DNA of 64,000 nt from Planctomycetota bacterium (lineage in GTDB: Bacteria; Planctomycetota; UBA1135; GCA-002686595). The translations under genes were made by a program, and so were the position numbers. A model generated the notes under the pieces. That model worked only from the letters and a program-made list of their open reading frames with translations. It did no database searches and was not told where the DNA came from. Shown one piece after another: positions 1 through 50,573 of this stretch; the first letter of the stretch is position 1, and every line of letters begins with the position of its first letter. The stretch spans positions 1 through 64,000 of the forward strand of contig SIAI01000005.1 of NCBI GenBank assembly GCA_009691855.1, in the 5' to 3' direction.

Positions 1-128
1 TAGCGCCAACAAGGCGCGGTGATGGATCGTCGCTGGCAAGGCGCGCCGACGACGCGTATTCGCTGCAATACTAGGGAGGAGGCGCAACGCCGCCAGCGGC
101 GATTCAGTGCGGCGGATTGTTGGCGCTA
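1..128. repeat. Candidate palindromic (MITE-like) element at the left window edge
   Basis: The first 12 bases, TAGCGCCAACAA, are repeated exactly as the reverse complement at 117-128, followed inward by weaker complementarity. There is no convincing coding frame inside. The length (about 130 bp) and terminal inverted repeat resemble the other palindromic elements in this window, but the sequence family is different. The window starts exactly on the repeat, so the true left end may lie outside. The stretch 129-211, up to the stop of the next gene, shows nothing recognisable. Confidence 0.5.
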
Positions 129-211
129 CTTCGGGGAAGGGACACTAGCCCGTCGAAAACGAAAGCGGACCCTCGCGGGCCCGCCGAGTAGCGTCGTGAA
201 CACCAGCGCGA

Positions 212-13806: not shown

Positions 13807-13968
13807 CATGGGCCCGTCCAAGAATCAGTTCGCAGTTGCGCCGGCCCTCGTCGTCGCTGGCTGCGTTGCGGCTCCTCGGAAACCATGCAGGTTGCCTGCG
13901 TCGCCGCGCCTTGCCATCGGCGATGATGGCTCGCCGAAACTGCGAACTCATTCTTGGACGAGCCCATG
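13807..13968. repeat. Palindromic MITE-like element inside the nuo operon
   Basis: A 162 bp element with 34 bp terminal inverted repeats: 13807-13840 matches the reverse complement of 13935-13968 in 31 of 34 positions (CATGGGC..CGTCCAAGAAT core). It begins 3 bp after the nuoI stop and its last three bases are the ATG of nuoJ. CATG at both ends may be a 4 bp target duplication rather than part of the repeat. In the mRNA the arms would form a long stem between nuoI and nuoJ. No ORF inside is credible. Confidence 0.85.
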
Positions 13969-45946: not shown

Positions 45947-47038
45947 TCACGGCGCGCGCTCGAAGAAGAGCAGGAAGATGTCGAGGATGAACAGCAGGAT
46001 GATGATCCACTCCAGGAACTCCGCACGCCGCCGCGCCGACTGGTCCGAGAGCTTGGCGTAGATGCTCTCCAGCGTGCCCAGCTTGCGCTCGATGGCCGCG
46101 TCCCAGGCGCCGAAGTGGAAGCGTTCGGAGGCGATCTCGTAGAGCCGCGCGAGGTAGTCGTCGCCGAGGAGCTTCAGCGCGTTGTCGAAGTTCTCGTGCA
46201 GGATCGCGCTGTCGGCCTGGAAGCGCGCCAGGCGCTCGATCTCCTGCTTGCGCAGCGCGAAGGCGAAGCGCGCGCGGCGCGCGTCGCGCAACAGGCCGTA
46301 GGCTTCCTCCAGGCGCCGCTCGAGGCGCCCGTCGAGGAAGCGCAGCTCGACCAGCTCGACCGTGGTCAGCTCCAGCACGCGGCGCTCGTCCTCCATGTCC
46401 GCGCCGATCAAGAGCGCCGCGAACCAGTCCACCAGCACCAGCTCGTCGGGCCCGTAGGCCGTGCGCCCGTCGAGCGCGTTCTCGACCTCGTGCAGCGACA
46501 GCGCCCCGCGTTCGGCGCGCAGCACGCGCGCCAGCAGCTCGCGCTGCTCGTTCTCCAGCTCGGCCGCCGCGCCGTCCGGCGCCTGCAGGCCGTAGACGAC
46601 GTAGTCCTCGACCTCTTCGGCCAGCAACGGCTCGCGCACCGCGTCGCCCAGGTGCTCGAGCAGCGCGCGCGCCTGGCCGCGGCCGTGCTCGAGCAGCGCG
46701 GCGTTGTCGTACAAGAGCTCGCTGGTCGCGACCAGGGTCTCGAGCTCCTGCTCCAGCGCCAGGGAGTACGTCAGGCACACCGCGCCGAAGGTGTACAGCG
46801 AGATCTCCAGCTCCTCGGCCGGCCTGCGCCCGTCGAGCGCCGGCGGTTGCACGCGCGTCGTCAGGCGCAGCGGCCTACCGAAGGTCGCCGCCTCCGGGCG
46901 CGGCGCGCCCTTGTGCTTGAACGAGCCCGCGCGCGCGCCGGCACCCAGGCGCTGCTCGGCCTTGGCCAGGTCGATCTCGAAGCCGAGGTCGAAGGCCAGC
47001 AGGACGTGGGCGGTTCCGCGGACGAGCATTGCGCGCAA
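45947..47038 (-). CDS. RMD1/YagE family (DUF155) protein
   Basis: A 363-residue protein with the C-terminal DUF155 pattern: RLARFQADSAILHENFDNALKLLGDDYLARLYEIASERF, ERKLGTLESIYAKLSDQS and a terminal membrane helix FLEWIIILLFILDIFLLFF. In fungi, Rmd1 and relatives are mitochondrial or vacuolar membrane-associated proteins of unclear biochemical role; bacterial members are uncharacterised. The helical middle region is probably coiled coil. Tail-anchored by the last helix. Divergent from the MATE gene (74 bp gap), convergent with the Ig-like protein gene. Confidence 0.85.
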   Translation of the reverse strand: MRAMLVRGTAHVLLAFDLGFEIDLAKAEQRLGAGARAGSFKHKGAPRPEAATFGRPLRLTTRVQPPALDGRRPAEELEISLYTFGAVCLTYSLALEQELETLVATSELLYDNAALLEHGRGQARALLEHLGDAVREPLLAEEVEDYVVYGLQAPDGAAAELENEQRELLARVLRAERGALSLHEVENALDGRTAYGPDELVLVDWFAALLIGADMEDERRVLELTTVELVELRFLDGRLERRLEEAYGLLRDARRARFAFALRKQEIERLARFQADSAILHENFDNALKLLGDDYLARLYEIASERFHFGAWDAAIERKLGTLESIYAKLSDQSARRRAEFLEWIIILLFILDIFLLFFERAP

Positions 47039-47112
47039 TTGTCCGGCCCGCGCGCCGCGCGAACAAGCGCGGCGGCATCGTTCCGCGCGCCGCGCTCGAC
47101 TACGCTCTCTGG

Positions 47113-48474
47113 ATGAGCGCCGAACCGCACCCGCTGCGCCCCGAGCTCCGCGCCCAGCTGCGCCTCGCCGGGCCGATGGTGCTTGTGCAGCTCGGCCTGT
47201 ACGCGATGGGCGCGGTGGATGCGGCCTTCATGGGGCGCGTGTCCGCGCTCGAGTTCGGCGCCGTGGCGCTCGGGCACTCGCTGTCGTTCGCCGTGCTGGG
47301 CATCGCCATGGGCACCCTGACCGCGCTCGACCCGATCGTCTCGCAGGCCCACGGCGCGGGCGAGGACGAGGCCGTGGCGCGCGCGCTGCAGCGCGGGGTG
47401 GTGCTCGCGCTCGTGCTCTCGGCCGTGGTCGGGGCGCTGCTGCTGTTCATCGAGCCGCTGCTGCGCGCGCTGCACCAGCCCGAGGCCGTGATCCCGCTGG
47501 CCGCGCGCTTCGTGCACATCTCGATCCTGGGCGTGCCGGGGTTTCTGCTGTTCGTGGCGCAGCGCCAGACGCTGCAGGCCACGCACCGCCTGCGCGCGCT
47601 GGTGTTCGTGATCCTGTTCGCGAACGGGCTCAACGCGTTCCTCGACTGGATGCTGATCCGCGGCCACCTGGGCGCGCCGGCCCTGGGCTCGGCCGGCTGC
47701 GCGTGGGCCACGGTGATCGCGCGCTGGACGCTGGCGCTCGCGCTGCCGCTGCTGGCGGGTGAGGTGCACTTCGCGCGCCTGTGGCCGCTGCGGCGCGGCT
47801 TGTGGAGCGCGAGCGCCTTCGCACGCATGCTGCACGTGGGCGTCCCGATCGGACTCTCGTTCGGCCTGGAGATCGGCGCCTTCAGCTGCGTGGCGGTCTT
47901 CATGGGGCAGCTCGGCGCGCGCGAGCTGGCCGCAAATCAAGTCGTGATGTCCCTGGTTTCGGCCTCGTTCATGATCCCGCTCGCGCTCTCGATGGCGGCC
48001 TCGGTGCGCGTGGGCAACGCCATCGGCCGCGGCGAGCCTGCGGCGGCGAAACGCGCGGCGCAGGCGGCGCTCACGCTGGGCGCCTCCGTGATGCTGCTCA
48101 GCGCCGCGGCCTTCACGCTCGCGCCGATGACGCTGGCGCGCATCTTCACGGACATCCAGGGCGTGCTCGTGGTCGCCGTGACGCTGCTGCCGATCGCCGC
48201 GCTGTTCCAGGTCTTCGACGGCGTGCAGGGCGTGGCCATGGGCTGTCTGCGCGGCATGGCCGACACGCGCGTGCCGCTGCTCGTGCACGTCGTCGGCTTC
48301 TGGGGCGTGGCGATCCCGGTGAGCGCCTGGCTCGGCCTGCGCCTCGGCTGGGGCGCGCGCGGCCTGTGGTGGGGGCTCGCGCTCGGTCTCGCCGTGGTCG
48401 CGCTCGTGCAGGTCGCCCGCGTGCGCGCGCGCTTCCGCGCCGGCGTGACGCGCTTCGCGGCCGAAGGACACTAG
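47113..48474 (+). CDS. MATE-family multidrug/cation exporter
   Basis: A 453-residue membrane protein with twelve predicted helices and two homologous halves. MATE landmarks: QLGLYAMGAVDAAFMGRVSALEFGAVALG in helix 1-2, a PGFLLFVAQRQTLQATHRLR loop, and GVPIGLSFGLEIGAFSC opening the second half. NorM/DinF-like transporters expel organic cations in exchange for Na+ or H+. The ATG at 47113 starts the first helix region properly; the track start is upstream of any homology. Its stop codon TAG (48472-48474) lies inside the terminal repeat of the adjacent palindromic element. Confidence 0.93.
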   Translation: MSAEPHPLRPELRAQLRLAGPMVLVQLGLYAMGAVDAAFMGRVSALEFGAVALGHSLSFAVLGIAMGTLTALDPIVSQAHGAGEDEAVARALQRGVVLALVLSAVVGALLLFIEPLLRALHQPEAVIPLAARFVHISILGVPGFLLFVAQRQTLQATHRLRALVFVILFANGLNAFLDWMLIRGHLGAPALGSAGCAWATVIARWTLALALPLLAGEVHFARLWPLRRGLWSASAFARMLHVGVPIGLSFGLEIGAFSCVAVFMGQLGARELAANQVVMSLVSASFMIPLALSMAASVRVGNAIGRGEPAAAKRAAQAALTLGASVMLLSAAAFTLAPMTLARIFTDIQGVLVVAVTLLPIAALFQVFDGVQGVAMGCLRGMADTRVPLLVHVVGFWGVAIPVSAWLGLRLGWGARGLWWGLALGLAVVALVQVARVRARFRAGVTRFAAEGH

Positions 48475-48636
48475 TGCTGTGATTCACGCACAGAGGCCTC
48501 TATCCCGGGCCGCCTGCGCCCGCCGCGGCGTTGCGCCTTCTCCGAGACTTGCACCGAAGTCGCGTCGGCGGCGCGCCTTGCGGCGAACACAGGCGACCTC
48601 GGGATAAAGGCCTCTGTGCGTGAATCACACCACTAG
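48471..48636. repeat. MITE-like palindrome between convergent genes, supplying both stop codons
   Basis: A 166 bp element with 39 bp terminal inverted repeats (48471-48509 against 48598-48636, 36 of 39 identical; core TGATTCACGCACAGAGGCC). It begins and ends with CTAG, perhaps a target duplication. The TAG within the left CTAG ends the MATE gene, and the reverse-complement TAG of the right CTAG ends the convergent PQQ gene. The long stem would act as a bidirectional terminator or mRNA 3' end. Different sequence family from the other elements here. Confidence 0.92.
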
Positions 48637-50573
48637 CGCGGGCCCGCCGTGCGCTCCGCCAGCAGCGCCGGCACCTTCTCGCCGCGCGCGAAGGTCGTCT
48701 GCGGAGGCGCGGTGAAGTCCACCGTGCCGATCTTGAAGAGCTCCTCGATGCCGCCATCGGGGCGGAAGACGCGCTGGTAGGTCGGCAGCAGGAGCCCGTC
48801 GAACGAGCGGTAGTTGCGGTAGATCGCCAGCGCCTCGTTCTCGGCCTCGCGCCCGGCGAGCAGGCCTGTGGCGACGTCGAAGTACAGCGTGCGCGCGCCG
48901 CCGGAGCGCAGCGTGGCCGTCACGCGCCAGCACGGACGCTCGTCGAACTCGACGCGTGCGTCGGTCGTGAGCTCGGCGTAGAGCGCGTTCCAGTCCGCGA
49001 GCGCCGTCAGGCGCGCGGCCGCGCCCTCTTCGCGCTCCTCACCGGGCGTGTAGAGCTTGTCGCCGCGGTAGGCGTTCAGCTCGAAGGTCGCCGAACCGTC
49101 GTGGACGCGCGAGATGTGCCCCGGCACGCCGTCCTTGGCGAACATCTCGTCGAGCGGCGGCGGGAGCTGGATGTCCACGCGGCGCTTGTCGGGCGCGGCG
49201 TACCAGAGCTCGTAGGGCGCGGGCACGAAGCCGACCGAGCGTTGCTCGTAGGTGCCCTGCACGTGGAGCGTCGGGTGCTTCGCGAGCGCTTCGGCGCCGC
49301 CGAGCGCGGCGAGGTGCGCGGCGACGAGCGTGGAGGCCTCGGGGAGCTCCGCGACGGTCGCCTGGGCGCTCGCCGGCGCGCTCGCCTTGCCGCCGCCGCG
49401 GTGATCACGGCACACCAGCGTCCCGCGGTTGTTGCGCGCCAGGATCCGTCCGCCAGCGATAGTGGGCGGCGTCCAGCACACGCCCTCCTCGAACAGCGCG
49501 CTGCGCGACAGCTCCTGGAACGCGTCCACGCTCGCCTTCGCCACGACGAGCTCGCCGCCCGAGCTGAGGATCGCGAGCTTGCCGTCGCCGCCCGAAATCG
49601 CGCCGCTGCCGAGGCCGCGCAGGCGCCAGCGCTCCTGGCCCTCGAGGTCCAGGCACTTCAGCACCGACTCGTCGAAGCCGAAGAGGCCGCCCTCGAGCTG
49701 CACGCAGCCGGCCATCTTGTTGCGCATGAGCTTGTTCTCCCACAGCGCGTGCGCCGGCCCGCTGGTGAAGTCGACCAGCGCGCAGCCGTGCTCGTAGGCG
49801 CTGGAGAGGAACAAGTGCTTGCCGACCACGACCGGCGTGGCCGCGTTCACCAGACGCTCGTCCTTGTGGAACGGGAACGAGCCGCGCGGCGCGCCGTCGG
49901 CGCGCGCGAACAGATCGAGCCCGCGCTGGCCGAACACCGCCACGGCCGGCTCGCCGGCGAGCTCGAAGCGCGCGGGCGTCGAGTACAGCGCCTCGCCAGG
50001 CTCGCTCTTCCACGCGAGCGCGCCGCTCTCTGCGTCGAACGCCAGCGTGCGATCGCAGCTCACGAACACGCGCCCGTCCACGAGCAGCGGTGAGCCCGCG
50101 AAGCCGTAGTAGCCGGGATCAAGCTCGTGCTCGGCGGCGAGGTCGTGCTTCCAGACGAGCGTGCCGTCGCTCAGTCGATGACACAGCAGGGTGCCCGAGC
50201 TCGTGCTCGTGTAGACGTTCTCGCCCGCGATCGCCGGCGTCGAGAGCGTCCCGCCCTCGTGCTGGTTCGCGCGCAGCTCGCCGGGCCACTCCTGCTTCCA
50301 CAGCTCCTTGCCCGTCTCGAGCTCGAACGCGCGTAGAACGTCGAGCGAGCGCTGCGCGTCGAAGCCGAACGCCACCACGCGCCCGCCACTCACCGAGGCT
50401 GCCGAGTACCCCAGACCGATCTCCGCCGTCCAGCGCGTCGTGCCCTCGGGCGCCCAGGCGACACCGTGCGAGAGTCCGTCGCCATCGGCGCCACGCCACT
50501 GCGGCCAATCGCCGGGTCCGGAGGAGGGAGCGGCGAGCGGCACGAGCACGGACGCGAGGGCGACGGAGAACAT
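48633..50573 (-). CDS. PQQ-like beta-propeller fused to LolA-like C-terminal domain
   Basis: A 646-residue secreted protein. A signal peptide is followed by the WPQWRG motif (about residue 23) that opens many planctomycete PQQ-binding-like propellers; blade repeats follow with GKELWKQEWPG, DGTLVWKHDL, SGALAWKSEP and QERWRLRG. After about residue 410 comes a second domain (ALGGAEALAKHPTLHVQGTYEQ, YAAPDKRRVDI, LYFDVATGLLAGREAE, YRNYRSFDGLLLPTYQRV) resembling the outer-membrane-lipoprotein-sorting (LolA/LolB-like) fold. Whether PQQ is bound is uncertain. The stop codon is donated by the palindromic element. Confidence 0.85.
   Translation of the reverse strand: MFSVALASVLVPLAAPSSGPGDWPQWRGADGDGLSHGVAWAPEGTTRWTAEIGLGYSAASVSGGRVVAFGFDAQRSLDVLRAFELETGKELWKQEWPGELRANQHEGGTLSTPAIAGENVYTSTSSGTLLCHRLSDGTLVWKHDLAAEHELDPGYYGFAGSPLLVDGRVFVSCDRTLAFDAESGALAWKSEPGEALYSTPARFELAGEPAVAVFGQRGLDLFARADGAPRGSFPFHKDERLVNAATPVVVGKHLFLSSAYEHGCALVDFTSGPAHALWENKLMRNKMAGCVQLEGGLFGFDESVLKCLDLEGQERWRLRGLGSGAISGGDGKLAILSSGGELVVAKASVDAFQELSRSALFEEGVCWTPPTIAGGRILARNNRGTLVCRDHRGGGKASAPASAQATVAELPEASTLVAAHLAALGGAEALAKHPTLHVQGTYEQRSVGFVPAPYELWYAAPDKRRVDIQLPPPLDEMFAKDGVPGHISRVHDGSATFELNAYRGDKLYTPGEEREEGAAARLTALADWNALYAELTTDARVEFDERPCWRVTATLRSGGARTLYFDVATGLLAGREAENEALAIYRNYRSFDGLLLPTYQRVFRPDGGIEELFKIGTVDFTAPPQTTFARGEKVPALLAERTAGPR

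Follow-up and report, generated by a model that had tools for sequence, protein, structure and literature searches.

Small mobile palindromes comparable to the 166-bp element that we describe here, which lies between two convergent genes of a Planctomycetota bacterium, have been reported in several systems, and passages of the published accounts allow a comparison. REPINs, treated together with RAYT genes, are mobile symmetrical hairpins found in many copies, with compensatory changes between arms and no gene of their own (PMC3116915). The YPAL or RU-2 palindromes of Yersinia come close by description, being mobile, ~168 bp long and known from target duplications and from empty and filled sites; by the same description they differ in having internal inverted repeats, duplications of 3-26 bp and termini without TA (PMC2229807). 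MITEPsy1 and other miniature inverted-repeat transposable elements (MITEs) of CTAG or YTAA sites share with the present element a small size, inverted repeats and a duplicated CTAG. However, MITEPsy1, in the part of the account cited, is 100 nt long, and its terminal repeat, of 18 nt, is similar to that of an insertion sequence (IS) (PMC3189936), while in our case no such IS was found and the palindrome runs the full length around a conserved head. Finally, CTAG is, in the passages cited, a recognised tetramer for four-base overlaps of convergent genes (PMC2174442).

The element was found in the window, by which we mean the whole stretch of DNA analysed (positions 1-64,000 of contig SIAI01000005.1, Planctomycetota bacterium, GCA_009691855.1). 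It is best described as belonging to a head-conserved, hairpin MITE-like family of Planctomycetota, which works like the known mobile palindromes near gene ends. We consider it probable that it is a non-autonomous mobile palindrome inserting at CTAG, and that at this locus the target CTAG was most likely already the shared tail of the two convergent genes.

Two convergent genes and the palindrome between them

The features of the locus are the following.

48471..48636, no strand: A-type palindromic mobile element, 166 bp (sequence read, inverted-repeat and genome searches, fold)
48471..48474, plus strand: left CTAG; the MATE gene stops at its TAG, 48472-48474 (sequence read)
48633..48636, minus strand: right CTAG; the PQQ gene stops at its minus-strand TAG, 48635-48633 (sequence read)
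48471..48507, plus strand: left arm of the inverted repeat (inverted-repeat search)
48600..48636, minus strand: right arm of the inverted repeat (inverted-repeat search)
48512..48594, plus strand: head region conserved across the family (match to covariance model R1, 99 bits)
47029..48474, plus strand: MATE exporter gene (PF01554), start uncertain (reading frame, coding score, Pfam)
48633..50573, minus strand: PQQ beta-propeller protein gene (PF13360) (reading frame, coding score, Pfam)

The MATE frame ends ...GGA CAC TAG and the PQQ frame, on the minus strand, ends ...CCG CGC TAG. Both convergent genes thus terminate within the CTAGs of the element, as a preliminary description of this DNA had observed. 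The same description gave the element 39-bp repeats and the second gene a PQQ/LolA-like product. Its 166-bp palindrome stands, with the entire sequence aligning to its own reverse complement at 77% (a near-perfect palindrome), although the arms measure 37 nt, ungapped and 95% complementary. The MATE and PQQ assignments hold as well, the latter through Pfam matches of PQQ/BamB type in the protein (P0002), but no LolA match was obtained for it in Pfam at E <= 0.001. Where the MATE gene begins is uncertain, the TTG at 47029 being only the first start that the frame allows.

The preliminary description further proposed that the element donates both stops and so defines both C-termini. This view is not supported. 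An in-frame TAG within a CTAG ends the gene before any insertion takes place, and so the stops came from the target. Moreover, the comparison of C-termini with homologues lacking this copy of the element gave, in all but exact position, the result that the description itself had named as speaking against its proposal. The 11 usable MATE homologues of 12 (row L089 was dropped for an internal stop) end from 0 to ~20 residues, in one case ~46, past the last aligned residue, with the window protein's tail inside that range. All seven PQQ homologues were usable; they end in the same C-terminal zone as the window protein, whose tail again falls within the homologue spread. When the flanks of the window are joined over a single CTAG, both proteins are unchanged and the genes overlap tail to tail.

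These data also bear on a scenario in which the element inserted within one or both genes and truncated them, its ends now acting as stop codons. That both genes stop inside its terminal tetranucleotides is what such an event would leave, yet insertion at an in-frame CTAG, already a stop, cannot truncate that frame, and the homologues end in the same zone. In addition, 25 of the 27 gene ends that reach an element, counted over the copies described below, do so in the TAG frame (p = 2e-10, with one frame at 1/3). We regard truncation as very improbable.

The history of the locus under CTAG insertion would be as follows. The family occurs across genera of Planctomycetota, and the element enters a CTAG and is then flanked by CTAG on both sides. 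At the ancestral locus the MATE and PQQ genes would have overlapped tail to tail over one CTAG, with one TAG per strand, and the insertion would have duplicated the tetranucleotide, leaving each gene its own TAG and pushing the pair 162 bp apart. The spreading form is probably a DNA hairpin, and an enzyme whose gene lies elsewhere would recognise it through the conserved head and the ends. Both this enzyme and the former overlap at precisely this locus are what we infer. A convergent overlap over an unoccupied CTAG occurs in one of the 52 convergent pairs (L432) of a 461-kb sample of the bacterium's own genome (G000; 4.28 Mb, 91 contigs). The four-base convergent overlaps already described (PMC2174442) would correspond to the empty site; insertion elements are not treated in the cited passages of that account.

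CTAG as the insertion site

A second repeat of the own genome, B, which opens TGAGCTACTAGGTTCGAG, offers sites with and without the element. The 21 distinct uninterrupted copies have a single tetranucleotide at the site, which reads CTAG in 17 and CTAC, CTGG, TTAG or CTCG in the other four (the tally leaves out L151, L153, L155 and weak matches, as well as L163 and L171, repeats of the same short stretch). An A element occupies the site in seven B copies, and at L002, L005, L010 and L011 it lies between the two halves of B with one CTAG on each side. Because uninterrupted B has one CTAG and A-interrupted B one on each side, CTAG is the insertion site of the element, as the preliminary description had suspected, and the site is duplicated. 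Elements of type A also abut those of a sister type, C, sharing one tetranucleotide, at L012, L013, L016 and L020 (CTCG at L020). The paired CTAGs may also be read as tetranucleotides of the Y1 type.

Repeat B (~190-400 bp; L150-L179 and L515-L517 in the own genome) has a relation to genes of its own. It opens with TGA in 23 of 23 uninterrupted copies, and in 19 of them a strongly coding frame stops, in frame, at this TGA. Among the copies displayed, C nearly always precedes the TGA. The link of B with stop codons is stronger than that of the element.

We then placed element ends relative to genes, which were called by a coding score with the window as training sequence. Once nine ends too near a contig end and ten duplicates had been dropped, 121 distinct ends from the own genome and a congener were available: 53 face the 3' end of a gene, 26 the 5' part of one and 42 neither. 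Among the 53, the gene stops at the TAG of the CTAG in 25 cases and beyond the CTAG in two; the other 26 stop before the element, seven at the TGA opening B and 19 elsewhere, 4-46 bp ahead. Stops at this TAG recur in genome G017 (7 of 13), in the cultured Pla163 (Rohdeia mirabilis; 7 of 9) and in a sample drawn mostly from the metagenome-assembled genome (MAG) Bpl_4 (17 of 38), this last mixing in loci of other named genomes, including five from Pla163 that were also sampled apart. YPALs, for their part, reportedly lie just after stop codons.

The composition of the genome helps to understand this pattern. CTAG is found 170 times in 461 kb of the own genome, compared with the 1204 occurrences that base composition predicts and the 488 of a second-order model, and the 140 lying outside elements comprise 25 stop codons, 68 intergenic sites and 47 sites within called genes. 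With CTAG this scarce and 25 of 140 free CTAGs serving as stops, targeting of CTAG leads to gene ends. Among the 48 copies scored on both sides (counted by element), only one is intragenic, against 47 of the 140 available CTAGs (p = 2e-6). The earlier suggestion that insertion into CTAG leaves a TAG on each side is supported, but its extension to convergent genes in general is weak: gene 3' ends lie on both sides in 6 of the 48 copies, and only the window copy has the TAG as stop on both. CTAG targeting together with the loss of intragenic insertions explains most of the pattern, and a pull towards stops is not established. The one clear intragenic A insertion (L023, ~1501-1666) sits in a gene whose domains are AAA_12, MTES_1575 nuclease and DUF3320, and which may be of a defence type.

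Several points weigh against the reading of a CTAG-inserting palindrome that entered a shared gene tail. A gene stop lies in the element's CTAG in 19 of 48 copies versus 25 of 140 free CTAGs (p = 0.003), but when intragenic CTAGs are left aside this enrichment is not significant (19 of 47 versus 25 of 93, p = 0.12). It could also be that the target contributes the left CTAG and the element the right one; the appearance of filled and empty sites is the same. The species is represented by one genome, with no strain available that carries an empty orthologous site. An autonomous relative was not found with end patterns in the own genome and five others, by reading singletons, or by searching for DDE_Tnp_1 in three genomes. 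The candidate ends read for such a partner are degraded, cut or paired over a short distance, and where the 28 exact ends of Pla163 were checked, they are those of short elements.

Conserved head, variable stem and spread of the family

Type A sequence occurs at 38 places in the own genome, 24 of them full length with 89-100% identity, the remainder including copies cut by contig ends, copies with an insertion and hybrids. Type C measures 168 bp and shares the head of type A on a different stem; it was found at no fewer than 40 places in the own genome and at 12 in a congener. Hybrids of A and C joined within the head exist at three loci (L029, L030 and L212). Two more members of the family lie in the window.

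1..148, minus strand: type C copy, cut by the contig start (C search, head covariance model)
13807..13968, plus strand: element of a third type, which shares the head and has ends reading CATG (head covariance model, coding score)

The right end of this third-type element gives the in-frame ATG of the next gene.

The 166-bp query matches 16 of 61 genomes, the own genome counted, although some single weak matches proved on reading not to be elements (G028, G041 and one G022 locus). Relatives of the element are present in at least 10 other genera of the bacterial family. Over one genome per species the head pattern retrieved at least 103 stretches, the matches listed being from Planctomycetota MAGs, Pla163 and Bpl_4, a MAG labelled 'bacterium'; the head covariance model found 78 copies in G017 and 12 in Pla163. 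The virus and plasmid collections gave no match to the element, and a description of the family was not found within the listings of literature searches on planctomycete repeats, Rohdeia and general terms. C elements of two congeneric genomes are 98% identical (L181, L183 and L185 versus the C copies of the own genome), whereas for the MATE proteins of the same genomes identity is 73% in the compared part. These values suggest that C elements were active or were transferred recently. In the 9-Mb assembly of Bpl_4 (G002) there are 180 exact A-type ends, many at contig ends, and the element itself probably breaks this assembly.

For the anatomy of the family we aligned 18 hand-picked elements, with at least one per genus and type (G017 locus L042 was left out for its poor end call). 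They share a structure of 58 pairs, in 50 of which both sides have changed. Paired cells amount to 90.5%, versus 30-39% with the partner slid, and the covariation score is 0.746 versus 0.096-0.119, part of both excesses being expected because arm complementarity helped to set the ends of the chosen elements. A head of some 60 bases is conserved between types (consensus GTTGCGCCTCCTCCGAG ... CGTCGTCGGCGCGCCTTG), while past CTAGTG the stem sequence differs from type to type. In REPINs, by the cited passages, it is the two ends that are conserved and the middle that varies (PMC3116915). The head-conserved, stem-variable layout is the inverse of this, and is the most surprising feature of the family. 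Nor does the element carry a conserved REP sequence with a GTAG-like tag at both ends: its ends read CTAG and vary between types past CTA, and it was not found beside a cognate RAYT gene.

Could the hairpin serve the host as an RNA or as a bidirectional terminator, maintained at gene ends and not mobile? The predicted RNA fold of the 166 bp is strong (-118.6 kcal/mol, z = -13.0, with 0 of 200 shuffles equally good), the head is conserved, covariation is heavy and many copies lie at gene 3' ends. Against this, Rfam at its gathering score gave only tRNA genes over 10 loci, the window copy having a sole match at E-value 0.84, and no terminator-like site (GC-rich hairpin followed by a T run) was found in 48401-48720, where the preliminary description would place both transcript ends. 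The stops show no clear bias between arms (15 versus 10), and 26 element ends face gene 5' parts. In the stem, G-T accounts for 21 of 863 cells and A-C for 43, which is not the picture that selection for RNA pairing would give. The 24 A copies compared, to which the congener contributes one, have 103 unpaired cells (20 of them from one fixed mismatch) versus 12 double changes; because unpaired cells outnumber double changes, copies are not repaired where they sit. We consider a host role of this kind highly unlikely. Since A copies decay uncompensated after landing, pairing seems tied to movement and not to a role at each locus.

A tentative and rather doubtful extension is that of a mobile DNA recognised by structure, in which nothing but the head and the terminal tetranucleotide stays constant and the two arms of each new stem are made together, for example through snap-back copying, with one arm as template for the other, during movement. 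This would explain how unrelated stems (A, C and others) come with the same head and a near-constant length of 164-170 bp across genera, as well as the unfavoured G-T pairs and the uncompensated decay after landing.

Some A and C elements carry an insertion that opens GGGGATATCCCC at the same point of the head (L207, L208, L210 and L216; G000:C86 twice, C62 and C28). Its letters resemble the start of an IS1595-type transposase.

Candidate enzymes and what the family offers

The element has the properties of a MITE in being short, non-coding, bounded by terminal inverted repeats and present in many copies, but no terminal repeats in common with an autonomous transposon were found. The mobilising enzyme was not found; there are two candidates, both compatible with a non-autonomous palindrome that inserts at CTAG.

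It is possible that a Y1 transposase (IS200/IS605-like, of RAYT type) moves a single-stranded hairpin, CTAG being the cleavage tetranucleotide. Within the family, Y1_Tnp is present in 12 of 14 genomes with the element versus 8 of 23 without it (p = 0.006, or p = 0.014 without G028, whose match is not an element), and pairing is kept while the stem sequence varies. However, the RAYT-like genes examined in the own genome adjoin other palindromes. There is also no consistent replication-strand bias, ~46 of 78 copies in G017 having one sense and the smaller Pla163 set leaning the opposite way. No Y1 match was obtained in G001 despite its 12 C copies, but this genome is 77% complete. At the RAYT loci L218-L220, L222 and L223 neither A nor C elements were found, and one A copy lies ~4 kb off in L221. 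The RAYT-like Y1 genes at L219-L222 are near long palindromes of their own, with arms of up to 78-91 nt (L219, L221 and L222). In this they recall TIRtrons, in which, by the passages cited, Y1-type transposase genes lie beside long inverted repeats (PMC3733652), but the palindromes near these genes are unrelated to types A or C.

Less probably, a DDE transposase of the IS5 kind, with targets such as CTAG or YTAA, moves the element as an ordinary MITE. A four-base palindromic site on both sides fits this model, as do types with TAA-like ends (G019d and G013) and, in the part of the account cited, the insertion of MITEPsy1 at CTAG or YTAA with duplication (PMC3189936). On the other hand, no DDE_Tnp_1 match exists in the own genome or in the complete Pla163 genome (other DDE families were not searched), and the terminal repeats past CTAGTG are not common to A and C although the head is.

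The locus illustrates a simple rule: by targeting a palindromic stop tetramer (CTAG, and generally YTAR), an element can enter a tail-to-tail gene overlap and leave both proteins unchanged, because the target reads as a stop on either strand and undergoes duplication. The family itself, with its conserved head and covarying stem, is a tractable case for the study of how hairpin elements that lack a transposase move.
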